NCBI GenBank assembly: GCA_949292215.1
Contig: CASEYW010000114.1
Coordinates: forward strand, 1-64,000
Length of the DNA stretch: 64,000 bases
Source: an uncultured bacterium
GTDB lineage: Bacteria; Verrucomicrobiota; Lentisphaeria; Victivallales; UBA1829
Direction: 5' to 3'
Both the position numbers and the translations under genes were made by a program. The notes beneath the pieces are model-generated. The model saw nothing but the letters and a program-made list of their open reading frames with translations. It was not told the DNA's origin and did no database searches. Shown here piece after piece: positions 28,302 to 60,570 of the stretch. The first letter of the stretch is position 1; each line of letters starts with the position of its first letter.

Positions 28302-29639
28302 ATGGCAAGATTATTCGGAACAGACGGAATCCGCGGCAAGGCTAATACCTATCCCATTACCCCGGAAATTGCACTGAAGGTAGGCAAAGCAGTCGCCCGG
28401 ATCTACGCGAGAGAAAACGGAACGGCAAAAGCTGTCATCGGCAAAGATACCAGACTCTCGGGCTATATGCTGGAAACGGCACTCACCAGCGGCATGCTCA
28501 GCATGGGCATGGATGTCCTTGAAATCGGCCCTATGCCAACTCCTGCGGTCGCCCATCTGGTCCGATCCATGGGCGCCGATGTCGGGGTGATGATCACGGC
28601 ATCGCACAATCCCTCGGACGACAACGGAATCAAAATCTTCAGTGCCGACGGCTTCAAACTTCCTGATGAAGTCGAAGACCGCATCGAACAGCTGATGAAC
28701 GAGGATACCTCCACCCTGCCTCCATCGAAAATTGGAAAAGCCTATCGAATCGAAGACGCACGCGGAAGATACATCGAATTTGCCAAGAGTTCCATTCACA
28801 GCAAAAGTCTCCGGGGAATCAAAGCTGTTCTCGACTGCGCCAACGGAGCCGCTTATTATATCGCACCCCTGATTCTGAAGGAACTCGGTGTTGAAGTCAT
28901 CCCCGTTTCCGTCACGCCGAACGGAACCAACATCAATGAAAACTGCGGAGCCACGCATCCCGAACAGATGTGCGAACTGGTGCGCAAACATCAGGCAGAC
29001 GTCGGCATCTCCCTCGATGGAGACGCTGACCGCGTCATCTTCTCCGACTCGAACGGAAACGTGGTCAACGGCGACCGCATCATCGGACTCTGCGCCCTTG
29101 ACTACAAGGCGGAGGGAAAACTTGCCTCCAATTCCATTGCGGTCACAAGCATGAGCAACATGGGACTCATCGCCGCCATGAAACAGGCAGGAATCAATGT
29201 GGAAATCACAGCGGTCGGAGACCGTTACGTTATCGAGCGCATGAAAGAAAAGAAGATCAATCTCGGCGGTGAGCAGTCCGGGCATCTGATCTTCCTCGAC
29301 TATGCAACCACCGGAGACGGCATCATCTCCGCACTCCACGTTCTCAAGCTTATGAAAGAGAAACACATGACTCTGGCGGAAATGGCAGCCTTCATGGAAG
29401 AATATCCGCAGCATCTTGTCAGTTTCAAGGTGCGGGAGAAGAAACCTGTCGCGGAAATCAACGGGCTTCCCGCCCTGATCGCCGAAGCGGAAAAGGAATT
29501 TGGAGAAACCGGACGGGTCGTCATCCGCTATTCAGGCACGGAAAACAAGATCCGCGTTCTTGTCGAATCGAAATCGCAGGAACTCGCCGACAAATGGATC
29601 GAACGCCTCTGCAACCACATCAAACAGGAGCTCTGCTGA
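28302..29639 (+). CDS. glmM: Phosphoglucosamine mutase
   Basis: A 445-residue enzyme converting glucosamine-6-phosphate to glucosamine-1-phosphate for UDP-GlcNAc synthesis. The phosphoserine S101 lies in ITASHNPSDDNGIK, the metal loop DGDADR is at 239-244, and the phosphate-binding RYSGTE is near 409-414. The N-terminus RLFGTDGIRGKAN is typical of GlmM rather than other phosphohexomutases. Length is normal. The next gene, one base after its stop, encodes a GlmU-like protein, consistent with a UDP-GlcNAc operon. Confidence 0.96.
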   Translation: MARLFGTDGIRGKANTYPITPEIALKVGKAVARIYARENGTAKAVIGKDTRLSGYMLETALTSGMLSMGMDVLEIGPMPTPAVAHLVRSMGADVGVMITASHNPSDDNGIKIFSADGFKLPDEVEDRIEQLMNEDTSTLPPSKIGKAYRIEDARGRYIEFAKSSIHSKSLRGIKAVLDCANGAAYYIAPLILKELGVEVIPVSVTPNGTNINENCGATHPEQMCELVRKHQADVGISLDGDADRVIFSDSNGNVVNGDRIIGLCALDYKAEGKLASNSIAVTSMSNMGLIAAMKQAGINVEITAVGDRYVIERMKEKKINLGGEQSGHLIFLDYATTGDGIISALHVLKLMKEKHMTLAEMAAFMEEYPQHLVSFKVREKKPVAEINGLPALIAEAEKEFGETGRVVIRYSGTENKIRVLVESKSQELADKWIERLCNHIKQELC

Positions 29640-51554: not shown

Positions 51555-53273
51555 CTATTCCTTGTACCACTTCGGCATACCTTTTGCCCGCAGTTCCGCG
51601 ACATGCCTGACGCGGTCCGCCAGAATTTCCTCCCGGGTCCAGCGCAGCAGCGGATCGCGGTAAGGAGTTCCGGCTGTGGATCTTGTGGCAATCAGAATCT
51701 CCTTTTCCCCCATCGGAGGCAGAATCGGCGCGGAGTCCAGAGCAGCCACAGTCCCGCCGCGCCTGCGTCCGAATGGTTTCGATTCGTAAAGATGAAAACC
51801 CAGTTTCAGAAGCGCACCCTTGAACGGATAGGCGCCGCAGTAGGAGGCAAGAAATCCTTCCGGTTTCAAACGGTCCTTCAGTTTTTCCAGAAAATCAATG
51901 GTCCAGAGCTCCGGGTTGGTATCCGGAGTAAACCCATCCAGAAAAATATAATCAAAGTGCGAAGAGAGGTAGCGGACCGATTCCCGGGCATCGCCGTGCA
52001 GGATTTCCACATACGCGCGCCGCGATTCATACTTGCCGGTCTCCTTCAGAGATTTTACAATTCCGTATCCTTTGCGTTCGGGCAGACGAAGAGCCGCATC
52101 AATGGCGCTCTCGTCCGCCTCCAGCGTAGTGATGTAGAGCCGGGCATTGCCTTTGAGACTTTCGGCAAGTTCCACCGCCGCACAGACATTGAATCCCATC
52201 CCGAAACCGACATCCAGAATGGACGCATTCTTTCCACTTTCCAACCGGGACTTCACTCCGCAGGGCTGAAGGTATTTTTTGTCGGATTCCGACCATGCAC
52301 CCGCAGTACTGTGAAAATGCTGACGATATTTCGGATGATAAAACGTATAGGACCCGTCACCGGTCCGAACCGCCTTCATGCAGTCCGGAGAGACTTCCCC
52401 GGACTCATACATCTTCAGGAACATGTCGGTAAATGCCGTTTTTCCCATCCACCAGTTCGGCGCAATCGTTTCCTGTTCCGGTGCATCGGCACAGAGACGC
52501 ATCACAATCCAACCGTCAGGGAGTTCCCGCAGAAAAGCGGCCAGCTCATTGGCATATTCGTATTCACTCATAGGTACGACCTGACCGTCATGGAACATCC
52601 GCTCCATGCGCGTCCCCTTGAGAACCAGAAGGTTGTGAACCTTGATCCCGGAAAACGGAAGTGCGGCGAGCTTGCGCGCCGTCCGGAGATAATCGGTGGA
52701 ACTTTCTCCGGGAAGCCCCAGAATCACATGCGCGGCAACCTTGATGCCTCGCTCATGAAGACGCGTCACCGCGGAACGGACAGCTTCAAAATGGTGTCCG
52801 CGGTTGATGAAATCCAGCGTATCGTCATTCGCGGTCTGGACACCGAGTTCCACCCAGACATCATAGTTTTCATTCAGCTCCGCAATCAGATCGACTGTCT
52901 CCTCCGGCAGACAGTCGGGCCGGGTCGCAAGGATCACCGTATTGAACTCTGCCATTTCCAGGACTTCGCCATAGAGCTTCCGAAGCGTCGCAACATCTGC
53001 ATTTGTCGCTGTAAAAGCCTGAAAATAAACGGCATATGGAGGTTTCGCCCCGTAACGCCCCATAACATACTCTATTCCGCGCTCCACCTGTTCGCGCAAC
53101 GGCATTCCCGGCCTGAGATGCCGGGCCCGGCTGCCATCCGCCGAACAGAACGCACAACCGCCTCCCCCCGCCTCCCGGTGCGGACAGGATAACCCGAGAT
53201 CAATCGGAATCCGCTGGATCGCCAGACCGTATTTGCGGATGAAATAATCCTTGAGCGTGATAATCTTATTCAT
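51555..53273 (-). CDS. Fusion of radical SAM (YhcC/YtqA family) and MnmD-type tRNA methyltransferase
   Basis: A 572-residue two-domain protein. Residues 1-305 are a radical SAM domain of the TIGR01212/YhcC/YtqA family, with cluster cysteines C30, C40 and C43 in SCPHREAGGGGCAFC and ELGVQTANDDTLDFINRGH. From about 310 a Rossmann methyltransferase begins: ILDVGFGMGFN (352-362) binds SAM and FLDGFTPDTNPELWT (444-458) is the signature of MnmC/MnmD methyltransferases, which make mnm5(s2)U from nm5(s2)U at the tRNA wobble position. No FAD domain is present. In B. subtilis, YtqA-type enzymes have been linked to the step before this methylation (my recollection), so the fusion joins consecutive steps. 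It overlaps rpe by four bases. Confidence 0.88.
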   Translation of the reverse strand: MNKIITLKDYFIRKYGLAIQRIPIDLGLSCPHREAGGGGCAFCSADGSRARHLRPGMPLREQVERGIEYVMGRYGAKPPYAVYFQAFTATNADVATLRKLYGEVLEMAEFNTVILATRPDCLPEETVDLIAELNENYDVWVELGVQTANDDTLDFINRGHHFEAVRSAVTRLHERGIKVAAHVILGLPGESSTDYLRTARKLAALPFSGIKVHNLLVLKGTRMERMFHDGQVVPMSEYEYANELAAFLRELPDGWIVMRLCADAPEQETIAPNWWMGKTAFTDMFLKMYESGEVSPDCMKAVRTGDGSYTFYHPKYRQHFHSTAGAWSESDKKYLQPCGVKSRLESGKNASILDVGFGMGFNVCAAVELAESLKGNARLYITTLEADESAIDAALRLPERKGYGIVKSLKETGKYESRRAYVEILHGDARESVRYLSSHFDYIFLDGFTPDTNPELWTIDFLEKLKDRLKPEGFLASYCGAYPFKGALLKLGFHLYESKPFGRRRGGTVAALDSAPILPPMGEKEILIATRSTAGTPYRDPLLRWTREEILADRVRHVAELRAKGMPKWYKE

Positions 53274-54356: not shown

Positions 54357-54473
54357 ATAACTGTCTACGATAGCCGTTTATCCAAAAATTAATTGTTGAG
54401 AAAAAATCATTTTTTTTATTTTAACAAATTGATTTTTTCATTTTCAACTATAACTTATATCGAAGACAGTTAT
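54357..54473. repeat. 16-bp inverted repeat flanking an 85-base AT-rich segment
   Basis: ATAACTGTCTACGATA at 54357-54372 and TATCGAAGACAGTTAT at 54458-54473 are inverted copies matching at 15 of 16 positions. The segment between them is almost entirely A/T. The right arm ends 23 bases before the U32-like gene and the presumed promoter must lie within or beside it. It may be a two-site operator that loops DNA, or a small MITE-like insertion. Confidence 0.6.
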
Positions 54474-54496: not shown

Positions 54497-55519
54497 ATGC
54501 GGTACATGATAGGTTATCAGCGGATGCGGGATGATCGTCTCAAGGAAGTGATTCTGCGGAACAGGGAATTCATCCATGAAATCTATTTTTCCTGGGGAGA
54601 CATGCCTTCCGGACGGGGTACGATGGAAAAAACCGGGGATTCGTTTCCATTTGAAATTCAGGGAGCAATGCTTGCCGAGCTGGAAGAGTATTCGCGGGCT
54701 GGAATCGGGATGAATCTGTTATTGAATGGGAACTGTTACGGGAGGATGAGTCAGTCTCGCGCTTTTTTTGAGAAGATCGGAGAAACGGTTGAGTTTCTCG
54801 GAGGACATCTATCTCTTTGCTCGGTAACGACGACCTCTCCTCTGATTGCGAAGTTCATCAAGCAGAATTTTCCCGAGCTGGAGACACGTGCATCGGTGAA
54901 CATGGAGATCGGCACGGTTCAGGGAATGGACTATCTGGCGGAAAATTTTGATGGTTATTATATGAAACGGGAGCTCAACCGGAATCTGCAGAAAATCCGG
55001 AAACTTCACACATGGTGCAGGAAGAACGGAAAAAAGCTCTATGGACTGGCGAACAGCGGATGTCTCAATCACTGTTCCGCGCATGTGTTTCACGACAATC
55101 TGGTGGCGCACGAGAACGAGATCCGGGAAATGGACAATGCCTATGATTTCCGGGGAATGTGTCATGACTATCTGAAAAAAGAGGAAAAGCGGATTCACTT
55201 TCTCCGTGACACGAATTTCATCCGTCCGGAAGATGTCGCTCTGTATGAACCGTACTTCGAAGCGCTGAAGCTGGCAACGCGGGTGAATCGGAATCCGGCA
55301 GCAGTGGTCGAGGCATATTTGACAAATCATTACAAAGGAAATCTTCCCGATCTGATGGAACCGGATCATGCGGAGGCATTTTATCCTGATGTGATTGAAA
55401 ATTCCCTTCTTCCTCCGGATTTCGGTTTGCATACGCTGAACTGCGCTCACAACTGCGATGAGTGCTCCTACTGTGAAGAGGCATTGTCGAAAGCGAGAAT
55501 CCGGCTGGATTTCAACTGA
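54497..55519 (+). CDS. U32-peptidase-like (UbiU/UbiV-type fold) Fe-S protein
   Basis: A 340-residue protein that looks like a diverged member of the U32 family, TIM-barrel proteins that include the oxygen-independent hydroxylases UbiU/UbiV and RlhA. Core cysteines are C189-x3-C193 in NSGCLNHCSAHVFHD, with C174 and C222 nearby; a second set C316, C320, C323, C326 closes the protein (NCAHNCDECSYC). These could bind one or two Fe-S clusters. No protease motif is apparent. AGAGGAAG precedes the ATG. Three QueG-like Fe-S genes follow closely, so a shared reductive or hydroxylating pathway is likely. Family assignment is tentative. Confidence 0.68.
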   Translation: MRYMIGYQRMRDDRLKEVILRNREFIHEIYFSWGDMPSGRGTMEKTGDSFPFEIQGAMLAELEEYSRAGIGMNLLLNGNCYGRMSQSRAFFEKIGETVEFLGGHLSLCSVTTTSPLIAKFIKQNFPELETRASVNMEIGTVQGMDYLAENFDGYYMKRELNRNLQKIRKLHTWCRKNGKKLYGLANSGCLNHCSAHVFHDNLVAHENEIREMDNAYDFRGMCHDYLKKEEKRIHFLRDTNFIRPEDVALYEPYFEALKLATRVNRNPAAVVEAYLTNHYKGNLPDLMEPDHAEAFYPDVIENSLLPPDFGLHTLNCAHNCDECSYCEEALSKARIRLDFN

Positions 55520-55555
55520 GTTTCAAGATTCAATTTTAAGATCATGGAGGCAGAT

Positions 55556-56623
55556 ATGCTGACGAGTCAAATGGTGAAAGATGCGGCGATCGCGGCGGGA
55601 GCCGACCTTTGCGGCATCGGTGACATGGCGCGGTTTGAAGGCGCTCCGCCGGAAATGGATCCGCGTCATATTTTCCCTGAGGCGAAAACGGTCATCGGGA
55701 TGGTGTTCCGGATTCCGCGTGGGGTTCAGCGGGGCATTGAGGAGGGTACGCAGTTCTATCAGTATCCTTCGATGGCATACGGCGGAATCAACGAAATCTA
55801 TGCGCCCGCGGTGCTCTATCATGTGGGGAAGCTGATTGAGGATCATGGATACGAGGCCGCTGTCTATCGCAACACTGGCGCACGCGGAGTGGTTTCCGAT
55901 ATGGATGGCTCTCCGGGCAACACGCTCTCGCCGGAAGAGCAGATCGAGATCAACGAACAGGCGAAAACGAAAACGGCGCATCACCGGTCCGTTCAGTATA
56001 CCCGTCCGACACGCGAAGGCAATATCGCGCCGGATCTCCAGTTTCATTTTCGTCTGGCGGCGGTTGCCTGCGGACTCGGAGAGATCGGCTGGAGCAAGAT
56101 GTTTCTCACGCCCGAATTCGGACCTCTCCAGCGCGTTGCCTTCCTTTTTACGGACGCGCCTCTGGAACCGGACCCGATGTATTCCGGTCCGCCGATCTGC
56201 CGCCGGTGCATGGCATGTGTCCGGGAATGTCCGGGACAGTGCCTCAGCAAAACGGAAAGCATCAAAGTCACAGTCGGCGGAAAAGTCTGCGAATGGGGCA
56301 AGCTCGATGAATGGAAATGCTATGCGTTCTATACGCACGGCGGACGCAAGTTCAATCCGTTTGTCCCGAAAGAGGTCTGGGACAAAAATGAAAACGGCGA
56401 TCTGAATCTTCTGGAAGGCAAATGCAAAGCAGGAGAAGCGGAGATCATGAAAGTCTACGGCGCTCTTGAGAAATACTTTCCGTCCTGGGTCGGCTATAAT
56501 ATGGCGAAATGCGGCGGCTGCATCCGTGCCTGCGTCTCCATGCTGGAGAAAAAAGGAGGATGTATGGAGCACCGTTTCAAAACCCGTTTGCGCACAGGCA
56601 AGGCCTGGGTCATGGATCGATAG
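55556..56623 (+). CDS. QueG-like Fe-S oxidoreductase, paralogue 1
   Basis: A 355-residue protein related to epoxyqueuosine reductase. C215, C218, C221 and C225 (CRRCMACVRECPG) plus C319, C322 and C326 (CGGCIRAC) form two cluster motifs as in QueG, and CGLGEIGWSKMFLTPEFGP corresponds to the QueG core. The QueG DYH catalytic motif is not seen; the region reads GTQFYQYPS. A roughly 55-residue stretch after the first cluster is absent from the other two copies. GGAGG lies five bases before ATG 55556, and this start aligns with paralogue 2. Confidence 0.8.
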   Translation: MLTSQMVKDAAIAAGADLCGIGDMARFEGAPPEMDPRHIFPEAKTVIGMVFRIPRGVQRGIEEGTQFYQYPSMAYGGINEIYAPAVLYHVGKLIEDHGYEAAVYRNTGARGVVSDMDGSPGNTLSPEEQIEINEQAKTKTAHHRSVQYTRPTREGNIAPDLQFHFRLAAVACGLGEIGWSKMFLTPEFGPLQRVAFLFTDAPLEPDPMYSGPPICRRCMACVRECPGQCLSKTESIKVTVGGKVCEWGKLDEWKCYAFYTHGGRKFNPFVPKEVWDKNENGDLNLLEGKCKAGEAEIMKVYGALEKYFPSWVGYNMAKCGGCIRACVSMLEKKGGCMEHRFKTRLRTGKAWVMDR

Positions 56624-56634
56624 GAGAAACCAAT

Positions 56635-57543
56635 ATGCTGACAGCTCAACTCATCAAGCAGAAAGCAAAGGAATACGGAGCGGACATCGTCGGCATCGGC
56701 GATATTGCCCACTATGCAGGCACGACTCCCCAGCGGAATCCGAAACAGATACTCCCGAATGCGACCTGCGTCATCGGTTGCGGATTCCGCGTTCCCCGCG
56801 CCCTCTACCGGACAATGGAACGCGGAAGCCAGTACTTCAATTATACACAACTTGGAGTCAAACTCATTGATGAGGAACTTTCCGAAGTGTTCCTGCTCAA
56901 AATGGGCGCGCTGATCGAAAACGAAGGCTATGACGCCTGTCTTCAGCGCAACATCTCGAATCTCCGGATCAAAGGCGATCACACAACGAATCCCGAACTG
57001 ATCGACACTTATGAACTGGTTCATGCGGAACCCGTTGCTCCGGGGAAACCTGTCCCGGATATCATCATGGACTTTGCGGAATCCGCCCGCATCTGCGGAC
57101 TCGGTTCAGTCTCCTGCAAAGGCAATGTGATTGTCCCGAAATACGGACCGTTCATCCGCTTTGTCTTCATCGTGACGGATGCACCGCTCGAAACGGATGC
57201 ACCTTTCGAAGGAAATCTCTGCGACCGGTGCGGCGAATGTGCAAAAGCCTGTCCCGGGCATGCCATCGGTGCTGACGGAAAACTCGATACCTGGCAGTGC
57301 GCAGTTTACTATCGCGGCGCGCACCGCTCGAATCCGTTTCTCACCGACGACTTTCTCAAGGATGATCCGCGACGGGAGGCGATCCTCGACGGACATGAAC
57401 GCTTCAATCGCGAAAGTGCCCGGGCGCTCTACCCAAAACTGGACTTTCTGCCGTCGCATGCCACCGGATACGCGCCTTGTCTCTGCGGGAAAAAATGCGA
57501 TACGGTCTGCTATCACCATCTCAAGGAGAAGAATCTCTTATGA
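56635..57543 (+). CDS. QueG-like Fe-S oxidoreductase, paralogue 2
   Basis: A 302-residue protein with C196, C199, C202, C206 (CDRCGECAKACPG) and a second set C282, C284, C288, C292 (CLCGKKCDTVC). CGLGSVSCKGNVIVPKYGP and VFIVTDAPLETD match the other two copies. The position of the QueG Asp motif reads GSQYFNYTQ. TAGGAGAAACC precedes the ATG, 11 bases after paralogue 1. It is likely cytoplasmic and oxygen-sensitive. The substrate is unknown. Confidence 0.82.
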   Translation: MLTAQLIKQKAKEYGADIVGIGDIAHYAGTTPQRNPKQILPNATCVIGCGFRVPRALYRTMERGSQYFNYTQLGVKLIDEELSEVFLLKMGALIENEGYDACLQRNISNLRIKGDHTTNPELIDTYELVHAEPVAPGKPVPDIIMDFAESARICGLGSVSCKGNVIVPKYGPFIRFVFIVTDAPLETDAPFEGNLCDRCGECAKACPGHAIGADGKLDTWQCAVYYRGAHRSNPFLTDDFLKDDPRREAILDGHERFNRESARALYPKLDFLPSHATGYAPCLCGKKCDTVCYHHLKEKNLL

Positions 57544-58493
57544 ACACTCTGAAAGAACAGATTATCGACCTCTTCAAACGCTGCGGCGCGGATCTGGTCC
57601 GTTTCGGCAATGTGGAGCGGTGCGGAGATCCGGCCGTCAAAACGATTTTTCCGCAGACAAAAACCGTTATCTGCGCAGCATTCCGTCAGCTCCGCGGAAG
57701 TCGCCGCGGAATCGAAGAGGGATCGACCTACTACCAGTACACAACAACTGCGGTTGAGGTCCTGGAAGAAAATGTCATGCCGACCGCTCTTCTGCGGGTC
57801 TGTGCACTTCTGGAAGACAACGGCTTCGAGGCTCTCCCCCAACGTCGGAACCAGACCGTCATGCAGGAGGAGGGCAGCACGAATTTCGAGGTTGATTACC
57901 GGGAAATCTATCGTGGCAGAAAAGCGGAAAACCAGCTTGATTTCGAACGCTGCGCAGTCGACTGCGGCCTCGGCGAACGCGGACTCTCCGGTTCCATTCT
58001 CACCGATGAATTCGGCCCCTGCCAGCGTTTTGTCTTCATTCTGACCGATGCCGTGATCGAACCCGATCCGATCGTCGAACCCCATCTCTGCGACCATTGC
58101 GGCGCGTGCGTCAAAGCCTGTCCCGGCCATGCGCTCGATCCGGAAAAAGGGCGCGACTCCTGGCAGTGCTCGGCTTACTACATCGGCGCCAACATGACGA
58201 AAAATCCGTTCATGCCGCCGGAAGCCTTCGCGGATGATCCGGAACGTCTCGCCATCATCACCGGAGAGACAAAACTCTCTCCGGAACGCGCACGGGAAAT
58301 CATCGACCAGGTCATCTTCTATCCTCCGATCAAACACAGCTACTGGTCCAGCATCTGCGGACGCGCCTGCGACACGGCGTGCTACATCCATCTGGAAGAG
58401 AAAAATGTCCTGACCAAAAAATTCCATACGCCGTTCCGGAAACGTCCTGAATGGCACCTGCCCGTCACCGAACCGGATCAGGCTAACAAATAA
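57540..58493 (+). CDS. QueG-like Fe-S oxidoreductase, paralogue 3
   Basis: A 317-residue protein with C184, C187, C190, C194 (CDHCGACVKACPG) and C273, C277, C281 (CGRACDTAC). CGLGERGLSGSILTDEFGP and FILTDAVIEPD repeat the shared core, and GSTYYQYTT stands where QueG has its catalytic Asp motif. The ATG overlaps the stop of paralogue 2 (ATGA), so the last two are translationally coupled and probably equimolar. A strong terminator follows. Confidence 0.82.
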   Translation: MNTLKEQIIDLFKRCGADLVRFGNVERCGDPAVKTIFPQTKTVICAAFRQLRGSRRGIEEGSTYYQYTTTAVEVLEENVMPTALLRVCALLEDNGFEALPQRRNQTVMQEEGSTNFEVDYREIYRGRKAENQLDFERCAVDCGLGERGLSGSILTDEFGPCQRFVFILTDAVIEPDPIVEPHLCDHCGACVKACPGHALDPEKGRDSWQCSAYYIGANMTKNPFMPPEAFADDPERLAIITGETKLSPERAREIIDQVIFYPPIKHSYWSSICGRACDTACYIHLEEKNVLTKKFHTPFRKRPEWHLPVTEPDQANK

Positions 58494-58510: not shown

Positions 58511-58551
58511 AAAAAAAGACACGGACCGAAAATACGATCCGTGTCTTTTTT
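58511..58551. terminator. Bidirectional terminator
   Basis: AAAAGACACGGA/TCCGTGTCTTTT, a 12-bp stem with flanking A and T tracts, between the Fe-S operon and the convergent dehydrogenase gene. Confidence 0.85.
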
Positions 58552-58576: not shown

Positions 58577-59542
58577 TCAGTTCTCCGTCATGGTCAGTAC
58601 GACCTTGCCGATGTTTTCCGCCCGGCGGAGTACTCCGTGAGCCTTCTCGACCTCACGAATCGGGAACACGGCATGAATGTTCGTAATGAGTTTGCGCGCG
58701 CTGAAGAGCGGCCAGAGATTCTTGTAAAGAGCCTGAAGAATCGCGCTTTTCTCCTGCGGCGTACGGCTGCGCAACGTACTGCCGATGAGACGGATGCGTT
58801 TGCGCCAGACCGTTTCCAGATTGATACACGTTTCCGCGCCGCCCATTGTTGCAATCATGATCCAGCGTCCGCCGAAGACCATGTTGCGGAAACACTCGCC
58901 CATCAGCTTTCCGCCGATGCAGTCAAGAGCAACGGTCGGGGGATGCGCTTCAATTACAGGACGCACATCCTCGGTCCGGTAGTCCAGCACATAATCCGCG
59001 CCGAGCTTCCGGACAAAGGCCGCCTTCTCGGGGGAATCAATCGTTGTAATGACTTCCGCTCCAAGCTGTTTTGCATACTGAATCGCAGCAAGCCCGACTC
59101 CGCTGGCACCCGCCTGCATATAAAAGACATCACCGGGCTTCATGCCGCCTGCCTCCAGCTGCAAATTCAGATAAACCGTACACCAGACCTCCGGAAGAGA
59201 CGCCGCCTCAATCATCGAAAGCCCTTCCGGGATCGGAATCACCATTCCTGCAGGAACTGTCACGAGTTCGGAATATCCGCCGCCGCCCAGAAGCGCGCAG
59301 ACCTTGTCACCGGGTTTAACAGCCGCATCGACAGGCGCTTCGAGCACCTCGCCGGAAACTTCGAGTCCGCACCACTGCGGCCAATCCGGAGGAGACGCAT
59401 AGCAGCCGTCCTTCTGCATCAGGTCGGCTCGGTTCACTGCCGCGGCATGGACTTTGATCAGCACTTCGCCCTCTTTCCGGACCGGATCGGGCACTTCCGT
59501 CCAGGCAAAATTGAGTTTGTCGTCAAGAATCATCGCATACAT
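58577..59542 (-). CDS. NAD(P)H:quinone oxidoreductase-like MDR protein (PIG3/QOR type)
   Basis: A 321-residue MDR protein of the zinc-free quinone oxidoreductase branch. RADLMQKDGCYASPP, QAGASGVGLAAIQYAKQLGAEVITT (NADPH-binding) and ALDCIGG are typical of the TP53I3/QorA group. GGAGGTG lies eight bases before ATG 59542. It is eight bases downstream of a Gfo/Idh/MocA gene in a minus-strand run of sugar-type dehydrogenases. Confidence 0.86.
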   Translation of the reverse strand: MYAMILDDKLNFAWTEVPDPVRKEGEVLIKVHAAAVNRADLMQKDGCYASPPDWPQWCGLEVSGEVLEAPVDAAVKPGDKVCALLGGGGYSELVTVPAGMVIPIPEGLSMIEAASLPEVWCTVYLNLQLEAGGMKPGDVFYMQAGASGVGLAAIQYAKQLGAEVITTIDSPEKAAFVRKLGADYVLDYRTEDVRPVIEAHPPTVALDCIGGKLMGECFRNMVFGGRWIMIATMGGAETCINLETVWRKRIRLIGSTLRSRTPQEKSAILQALYKNLWPLFSARKLITNIHAVFPIREVEKAHGVLRRAENIGKVVLTMTEN

Positions 59543-59550
59543 GGTTTTCT

Positions 59551-60570
59551 TCACCTCCATCTAGTGTATCCGGCGGCGGCCAGCGTGACCTCGTGCACCA
59601 GATAATCGTGTTCGTATGTACAGGGATTTTTCATCTCGCCGCGAATGATCTTCGCCAGTTCGATGAGCTGATTTGCATAGCGGTCGGACTGCGGCTGGAA
59701 GCGGAGCGTGTGCTCTCCGGCGGGGAATCCGCTGGAATCCTTCGCCAGAGAGAGCGTGATCTCGACCGGCTTGCCGTCGAACCGTTCCACCGGACTGAAA
59801 ACAATCGACCCATCCGTTCCGGCGATCCGGATGCGGCGGCCAGACGTATTCGCACGATCCCTGCTGCAGGAGCGGAGCGTCACGATCGCATGCGGGTACT
59901 CCAGAACCGACATGCAGTTGTTCCGGATGGAAGCCGGATCGCCCGGTGCCGAATGCAGGAACGGCGTGACATTCTCCGGACGCCCCATTCCGGCAACCAC
60001 AAAGTCGATCAGGTGACAGCCGAGATTGTACATGATTCCCCCCGGGAATTTGCCGATGTATTCCTGATACTCCTCTCCGCCGTAGCAGTGGTTCATATCG
60101 GCTTCGATCTCGAAGACCTCGCCGAGCAGCTTCTCCCGGATCGCCCGGATGCAGAACTGAAACGCGGGATTGCCGCGGAACATGTACCCCATCTGAAAAG
60201 GAAGATTCCGTTCCCGGCAGCCGTCGAGCAGTTTTCTGTAGAGCGCCGGATCCTCGCCGGCGGGCTTGTCCATGTGCATGGGAAGATTGCGCTCCATGCA
60301 GCGCAGCGCGACCGGAACCAGATCGTTGTTCGGCACCTCCACGACCACGGCATCCAGATCCGGCGTATTCAGGACCTCCTCCTCGGTCATCCACCTCAAA
60401 TCCTTGTAGAAATCAAGGTTCGGAGTACCGCACCTCGGCGTTTTCGAGGTCTCCATGTCGTTGACCACGCCGACGATCTCGAAAACATCCGGCAGACGCT
60501 TCAGGGAAAGAATCTTCCCCGACGCATGTTCATGACAAATCCCGATCTGGGCAATTCGAATCTTCTTCAT
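59551..60570 (-). CDS. Gfo/Idh/MocA-family oxidoreductase, tandem copy A
   Basis: A 339-residue protein starting KKIRIAQIGICHEHASGKI. The EKP motif is replaced by MHMDKPAGEDPALY (DKP), and MGYMFRGNPAFQF and YNLGCHLIDFVVAGMG occupy the active-site blocks. It shares these unusual blocks with the next gene, so the pair arose by duplication. It lies between copy B and the MDR gene in one probable operon. The substrate is unknown. Confidence 0.87.
   Translation of the reverse strand: MKKIRIAQIGICHEHASGKILSLKRLPDVFEIVGVVNDMETSKTPRCGTPNLDFYKDLRWMTEEEVLNTPDLDAVVVEVPNNDLVPVALRCMERNLPMHMDKPAGEDPALYRKLLDGCRERNLPFQMGYMFRGNPAFQFCIRAIREKLLGEVFEIEADMNHCYGGEEYQEYIGKFPGGIMYNLGCHLIDFVVAGMGRPENVTPFLHSAPGDPASIRNNCMSVLEYPHAIVTLRSCSRDRANTSGRRIRIAGTDGSIVFSPVERFDGKPVEITLSLAKDSSGFPAGEHTLRFQPQSDRYANQLIELAKIIRGEMKNPCTYEHDYLVHEVTLAAAGYTRWR

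Follow-up and report, generated by a model that had tools for sequence, protein, structure and literature searches.

A conserved four-gene operon of anaerobic bacteria encoding a U32-fold protein and three relatives of reductive dehalogenases and QueG

Two functions only, dehalogenation and epoxyqueuosine reduction, are established for the Class III cobamide and iron-sulfur (Fe-S) enzymes. Further Class III families may exist, but no cobalamin motif reveals them (PMC4646009). The QueG pocket above the cobalt contains Tyr101 (within D100-Y101-H102) and Asp130 and has no equivalent of Arg305, which together with Tyr246 and Asn272 makes up the pocket of the reductive dehalogenase (RDase) PceA (PMC4646009, PMC5500849). 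In a separate Fe-S family, the characterised U32 oxidases perform O2-independent hydroxylation and share the cluster motif CX6CX15CX3C (PMC11574389). Here we describe a locus that brings relatives of these families together. In a 64,000-nucleotide stretch of DNA from an uncultured bacterium of the Victivallales (contig CASEYW010000114.1, positions 1 to 64,000; hereafter the window), four tightly packed, co-directional plus-strand open reading frames (ORFs) at 54497-58493 form an operon with a putative LacI-type operator and a terminator-like hairpin. An original prediction, made from the sequence alone, had taken these four adjacent genes for a U32-fold protein followed by three diverged QueG-like proteins, and both the ORFs and the structural matches given below agree with it. 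We found no published description of this four-gene cluster in the open-access literature. With even confidence, we propose that it is an inducible catabolic operon of anaerobes and a new branch of Class III (reductive dehalogenase/QueG) that works with a U32-fold Fe-S protein.

Three RDase/QueG-like subunits with a common set of residues

Gene 2 (55556-56623, plus strand), which has an insert of ~50 residues, gene 3 (56635-57543, plus strand), and gene 4 (57540-58493, plus strand) all encode RDase/QueG-like subunits. They score far under the cut-offs of both families: genes 2, 3, and 4 reach 26, 44, and 30 bits against a cut-off of 200 for TIGR00276 (QueG), and 46, 48, and 36 bits against a cut-off of 160 for TIGR02486 (reductive dehalogenase), which is nevertheless the best NCBIfam match of all three. 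Compared with solved structures, a profile of the three proteins has its best matches in the RDase 8q4h (E = 6e-17), QueG 5d08 (4e-15), and PceA (4e-15). Using Foldseek, we find that the top 46 matches to the gene 2 model are all RDases or QueG (E<1.5e-5) and that the next is the B12 chaperone MMACHC, at E = 0.07. The two-cluster module C-x2-C-x2-C-x3-C ... C ... C-x2-3-C-x3-C is present in genes 2-4, with Cx3Cx3C as the last motif in genes 3 and 4. Conservation was counted across 81, 72, and 66 proteins for genes 2, 3, and 4 (~220 in all), and the eight cluster cysteines are 100% conserved in each subunit, confirming the two Fe-S cluster motifs that had been expected.

To place the three proteins relative to QueG we used a tree that included twelve DYH-bearing QueG or QueG-like proteins and left out full RDase sequences. 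Genes 2-4 fall outside the QueG clade with 100% support in the Shimodaira-Hasegawa-like approximate likelihood ratio test, on a stem of ~3 changes per site. Within the tree, genes 2, 3, and 4 are three separate clades, of which 3 and 4 are sisters, and each clade spans both Bacillota and bacteria of the Planctomycetota-Verrucomicrobiota-Chlamydiota (PVC) group. The triplication is therefore old, with each copy under its own constraint, and we reject a local triplication.

Alignment and topology point to a candidate active site. Arg193 of gene 2 aligns directly with PceA Arg305 and NpRdhA Lys488. Asp160 lies 12 residues before a GLG motif, as does PceA Asn272, while Asp130 of QueG lies 13 before. 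Tyr70 stands at the start of the helix that precedes the Asp160 strand, like Tyr101 of QueG, a placement made by topology that no profile alignment fixes. Tyr70 is conserved in 100, 98, and 98% of gene 2, 3, and 4 proteins and Arg193 in 100% of all three, and the acid at position 160 is Asp in gene 2 (100%), Asp (87%) or Glu (12%) in gene 3, and Glu in gene 4 (96%). Genes 2-4 thus have the Tyr246/Arg305 (Lys488) pair of the reductive dehalogenases, the Arg by alignment and the Tyr by topology; from the QueG set they keep the Tyr and the acid and lack the Asp and His of DYH. The FYQY, YFNY, and YYQY segments that had been noticed in the three paralogues are real and by topology occupy the DYH site, but they do not simply replace the catalytic segment: the last Tyr is kept in 98-100% of proteins, so we reject their interpretation as loss of the catalytic Tyr. 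To our knowledge, a QueG-type acid combined with an RDase-type Arg has not been described, and from their sequences genes 2-4 seem to have an active site of a third Class III kind.

These residues bear on two alternatives in which genes 2-4 would have a known Class III function. In the first, they are divergent RDases acting on natural organohalides. The RDase-type Arg193, the better profile scores to RDases than to QueG, and TIGR02486 as best NCBIfam match favor this idea, but scores of 36-48 bits against 160, the acid at the position of PceA Asn272, and the sugar-type regulators and neighbors described below make it quite improbable; furthermore, no RdhB/RdhC-type gene was recognised among the recurring neighbors, of which the family-model search covered some only. 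In the second, the operon is a tRNA-modification cassette for queuosine whose proteins replace QueG in bacteria that lack it. Indeed, no QueG above the family cut-off is present in the window's genome or its genus, and only one of the 41 genomes searched has one. However, the loss of DYH, the lack of a C-terminal helical-repeat domain, the separate branch, the sporadic presence of the operon, and its catabolic type of control by LacI or AraC regulators leave this very unlikely. Family scores, tree, and DYH residues together support the earlier view that the paralogues are not epoxyqueuosine reductases.

A U32-fold partner in a conserved operon

Gene 1 (54497-55519, plus strand) encodes the U32-fold protein. 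Its AlphaFold2 model (predicted local distance difference test score 93.7) has the U32 protein 5d88 as its top Foldseek match among solved structures (E = 1e-9; template modeling (TM) score 0.70 on the target), the next match being at 6.7e-5. The match to Pfam PF01136 (E = 0.061; 13 bits) is below the gathering cut-off of 22.4 bits, and we therefore file gene 1 as U32-fold rather than as a Pfam U32 member. The two predicted cysteine sets are both there: none of the 71 orthologues lacks C80, C189, C193, or C222, and the C-terminal set (C316, C320, C323, and C326) is optional, being kept in ~75% of them. The spacing of the obligate set, C80...C189-x3-C193-x28-C222, is not that of CX6CX15CX3C.

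By analogy with UbiU/UbiV, the original prediction had allowed for a reductive or a hydroxylating multi-enzyme pathway. An explanation of the second kind would make the U32 protein the catalyst of an oxygen-independent hydroxylation, as UbiU/UbiV, RlhA, and TrhP are, with the three RDase-like proteins serving only in electron transfer. The confirmed U32 fold with its four invariant cysteines, the chemistry described for U32 oxidases (PMC11574389), and the existence of tandem loci with U32 genes and no RDase-like genes are consistent with this. Yet the analogy is one of U32 fold only, the cysteine spacing differs, gene 2 is more conserved than gene 1, and the RDase-like proteins have a full Tyr/acid/Arg site that would be unexpected in mere electron carriers. 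Hydroxylation by the operon is possible but gains no specific support here, and we regard it as improbable; reduction rather than oxidation is the chemistry that we favor.

The operon is not peculiar to the window. A scan with the gene 2 protein across 84,980 species genomes gave 226 relatives, and we retained the 80 best loci. By record title, the carriers of the gene set among these belong to Lentisphaerota, Verrucomicrobiota, Planctomycetota, Kiritimatiellota, and Bacillota, and many come from plant-fed guts. In 80 of 80 loci gene 2 is followed by gene 3, and then comes gene 4 unless the contig ends first. Gene 1 adjoins in 72 of the 80 (downstream in L044); two loci cannot be judged because the contig ends just upstream, and the six genomes without gene 1 nearby all have a U32 homologue elsewhere, at 39-55% identity. 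A clostridial family of 70 genomes includes six with a gene 2 orthologue. Five of the six have gene 1 directly adjacent; in the sixth, gene 2 begins at base 4 of the contig, and gene 1 is never present without gene 2. Recurrence of the gene set in 80 loci is far beyond chance, and co-occurrence of the four genes in anaerobes, proposed earlier as a check, is supported. Between the four proteins, pairwise distances show correlations of 0.65-0.88 (at most 0.16 in 500 permutations), part of which is shared ancestry, and mean identity ranges from 80% for gene 2, the most conserved, to 50% for gene 1. The gene 2 tree parts Bacillota from the remaining carriers, a pattern that would fit old vertical descent and early lateral spread alike, and we find no match of the operon to a mobile element in plasmid or phage records.

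We prefer 55556 over 55544 as the start of gene 2 because a GGAGG ribosome-binding site falls within the longer ORF. The start of gene 4 overlaps the stop of gene 3, as it does in 52 of 56 loci. A strong terminator-like hairpin (58512-58551, minus strand; 17-bp stem with T/A runs on both sides) closes the operon before the convergent gene at 58577-59560. Because of the strict synteny, the coupled start and stop codons, and the co-evolution of the subunits, we infer that genes 2-4 form a heteromeric complex, with gene 2 as the probable main catalytic subunit. A heteromer or sequential steps had been offered to account for the triplication; distinct, conserved, and co-evolving subunits are what a heteromer or a fixed pathway would need.

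Regulation, sugar context, and proposed function

Upstream of gene 1 we identify a putative LacI-type operator, ATAACTTATATCGAAGACAGTTAT (54450-54473, plus strand), a 24-bp imperfect palindrome with a central CG that ends 24 bases before gene 1 begins. A second operator-like copy in inverted orientation, ATAACTGTCTACGATA (54357-54372, plus strand), is 94% complementary to 54458-54473; no other good intergenic match exists in the genome, the one site with a single mismatch being within coding sequence. The 24-mer, with at most one base change, also lies upstream of the operon in four other genomes (G002, G003, G013, and G020). A search for a wider regulon returned the exact 24-mer at this operon only, the remaining matches being weak or in coding sequence. 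A LacI gene stands directly upstream of the operon in three loci (L041-L043); the window operon has no adjacent regulator and has its operator in common with genomes that have the adjacent LacI gene. The LacI orthologue of the window's genome is elsewhere (C117:22698-23687; 270 bits versus 116 for the next), among neighbors that look like housekeeping genes. About half of the loci have a regulator gene no more than 500 bp from the operon, 29 of them an AraC-type gene (nearly all divergent) and 14 a LacI-type gene. Based on these sequences, a LacI or AraC regulator that responds to the substrate probably controls the operon. An Rfam scan of the operon surroundings for a cobalamin riboswitch gave nothing relevant.

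Co-directional linked genes vary by lineage and are mostly those of sugar or glycoside metabolism. For example, a GH63/MGH1-like enzyme is linked in six Lentisphaerota loci and DUF5696 proteins in five Clostridia; GH43, GH116, and GH127 occur as single cases, and there are two aldose 1-epimerases. Further operon-mates include Gfo/Idh/MocA oxidoreductases, xylose-isomerase-like proteins, major facilitator superfamily transporters, and a ROK regulator. In seven clostridial loci a cupin gene (~120 aa) stands between genes 2 and 3 (e.g., L098:11062-11412), and in an eighth (L093) it directly precedes gene 1. As supporting evidence, both the regulators and the operon-mates suggest that the operon serves the inducible breakdown of sugars or glycosides, a context that argues against RNA modification and against organohalide respiration. 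The same context could suit an O-demethylation or methyl-transfer system that acts on O-methylated sugars or aromatic glycosides and passes the methyl group to a cobamide, and the plant-fed gut habitats would agree. However, no methyltransferase was recognised among the recurring operon-mates, and a two-cluster redox chain fits reduction better than methyl transfer, so that we think this function has little chance of being the right one.

Several observations weigh against the catabolic Class III reading that we prefer. Glycoside hydrolases abound in Lentisphaerota genomes, as do sugar-type neighbor genes in PVC genomes generally, and some of the neighborhood signal may therefore be background; the window operon itself contains no sugar gene. 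Confidence in the gene 2 model is low at residues 109-149 (the insert), and its TM-scores to RDases are only about 0.4. B12-boxes are not enriched upstream of 81 operons (3 counted, 3.2 expected by chance), and the presence of CobS in 8 of 12 carriers among the relatives is uninformative. Class III enzymes have no cobalamin-binding sequence motif (PMC4646009), and for genes 2-4 cofactor binding is something that we infer. We also considered the same complex with genes 2-4 as a cobalamin-free Fe-S reductase that binds no cobamide, for which the lack of a motif and the absence of CobS from 4 of the 12 carriers can be cited. We find this doubtful, since all three subunits keep the Tyr/acid/Arg residues that lie around the cobalt in RDases and QueG, and the next structural match is a B12-chaperone fold. 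The B12-dependent methionine synthase domain is present in all eight carriers tested (seven above and one below the cut-off), which together with the CobS carriers makes cobamide supply plausible but does not by itself prove its use by genes 2-4.

Returning to a new Class III branch, we propose the following mechanism. Each of genes 2-4 would carry two [4Fe-4S] clusters, seen as the invariant cysteines, and probably a base-off cobamide, next to an active site of Tyr70, the acid at 160, and Arg193, as suggested by conservation and by position in alignment and topology. In the heteromeric complex, with gene 2 as its main catalytic subunit, the clusters would relay low-potential electrons to the cobamide, and protonation of the leaving group would fall to the Tyr/acid/Arg set. 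By analogy with the epoxide reduction of QueG, the likeliest reaction would be reductive C-O bond cleavage in a sugar- or glycoside-derived metabolite. As the operator and the neighboring regulators suggest, a LacI or AraC protein would respond to this substrate and control the operon. The U32 protein may activate or hand over the substrate or perform a partner redox step. In its full form, the proposal is that a heterotrimeric RDase/QueG-like complex with a U32 partner adds a third functional class to the Class III cobamide enzymes. In anaerobic gut bacteria such a complex would act on a compound derived from a sugar or glycoside, deoxygenating or cleaving it by reduction, and Lentisphaerota would have many paralogous systems diversified in substrate; this we offer tentatively, as more apt to be wrong in some part than right throughout.

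Paralogous systems and comparison with known enzymes

Related systems are found in the same and in related genomes. Two more loci of the window's genome (L124 and L125) combine a single gene 2-like protein with a U32 protein and an IclR regulator. In relatives, two or three RDase-like genes stand in tandem with an IclR gene and no adjacent U32 gene (L126-L128 and L136). Beside IclR regulators there are also fused proteins of ~790-800 aa with two RDase-like modules (L128:5305-7659 and L137:3-2420; TIGR02486 107 bits in L128). In some relatives up to 19 stretches per genome match gene 2, the number of genes being lower. Tyr70, Asp160, and Arg193 are invariant in 20 aligned proteins of these systems, including those with a single RDase-like protein and a U32 protein. 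This minimal pair suggests that the core function lies with the RDase-like and U32 proteins and that genes 3 and 4 elaborate on it. The U32 family also occurs by itself: at L134:6295-12297 (genome G027), members of the gene 1 family are repeated four to five times in tandem without RDase-like genes. That tandem lies near an apparent cobalamin-dependent methionine synthase, and similar tandems exist in many genomes of one related genus.

Two features elsewhere in the window concern translation. A tRNA-modifying radical SAM protein of the MnmL/YtqA type (TIGR01212; 280 bits, above cut-off) is fused to an MnmC2/MnmD-like methyltransferase (Methyltransf_30) at 51555-53273 on the minus strand, and the fusion may unite the two final steps of mnm5s2U synthesis within one polypeptide. 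At 29034-29112 (minus strand) there is a tRNA-Arg with anticodon GCG, which is unusual in that bacteria normally read CGN with ACG.

If our reading is correct, the operon is a concrete and recognisable third family of Class III, marked by a residue signature, a constant partner from the poorly understood U32 Fe-S family, and a catabolic setting, and may reveal new oxygen-free chemistry. That relatives have several paralogous systems in one genome suggests that a large layer of anaerobic metabolism is still unannotated. The function of the operon is testable in a named strain, Oligosphaera ethanolica DSM 24202, which carries genes 2-4.

The comparison with known systems can be drawn as follows. 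With the reductive dehalogenases (PceA, NpRdhA; TIGR02486), genes 2-4 share the nitroreductase-like domain, two [4Fe-4S] clusters with the same order of eight cysteines, an AGLG-type motif, a conserved Tyr, and an FGPxxR Arg that corresponds to PceA Arg305 and NpRdhA Lys488. They differ in falling far under the family cut-off, in the acid that replaces Asn272, and in having a single operon that encodes three subunits along with a U32 partner, amid glycoside-type neighbors. With QueG (TIGR00276) they share the two-cluster ferredoxin module, the Tyr at the same helix start, and the acid at the position of Asp130, but they lack the Asp and His of DYH and the HEAT-like C-terminal domain, form a separate branch under catabolic regulation, and have Arg193, for which QueG has no counterpart. 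Gene 1 has the U32 TIM-barrel-like fold and four invariant cysteines in common with the U32 oxidases (UbiU/UbiV, RlhA, TrhP) and with 5d88, whereas its cysteine spacing, its sub-cut-off Pfam U32 match, the extra optional C-terminal four-cysteine set, and its tie to RDase-like proteins set it apart. Lastly, the paralogous systems in the same genomes are built from the same protein families with the same invariant Tyr70, Asp160, and Arg193, and differ from the operon in their control by IclR, their one to three RDase-like subunits, their optional U32 protein, and presumably their substrate.

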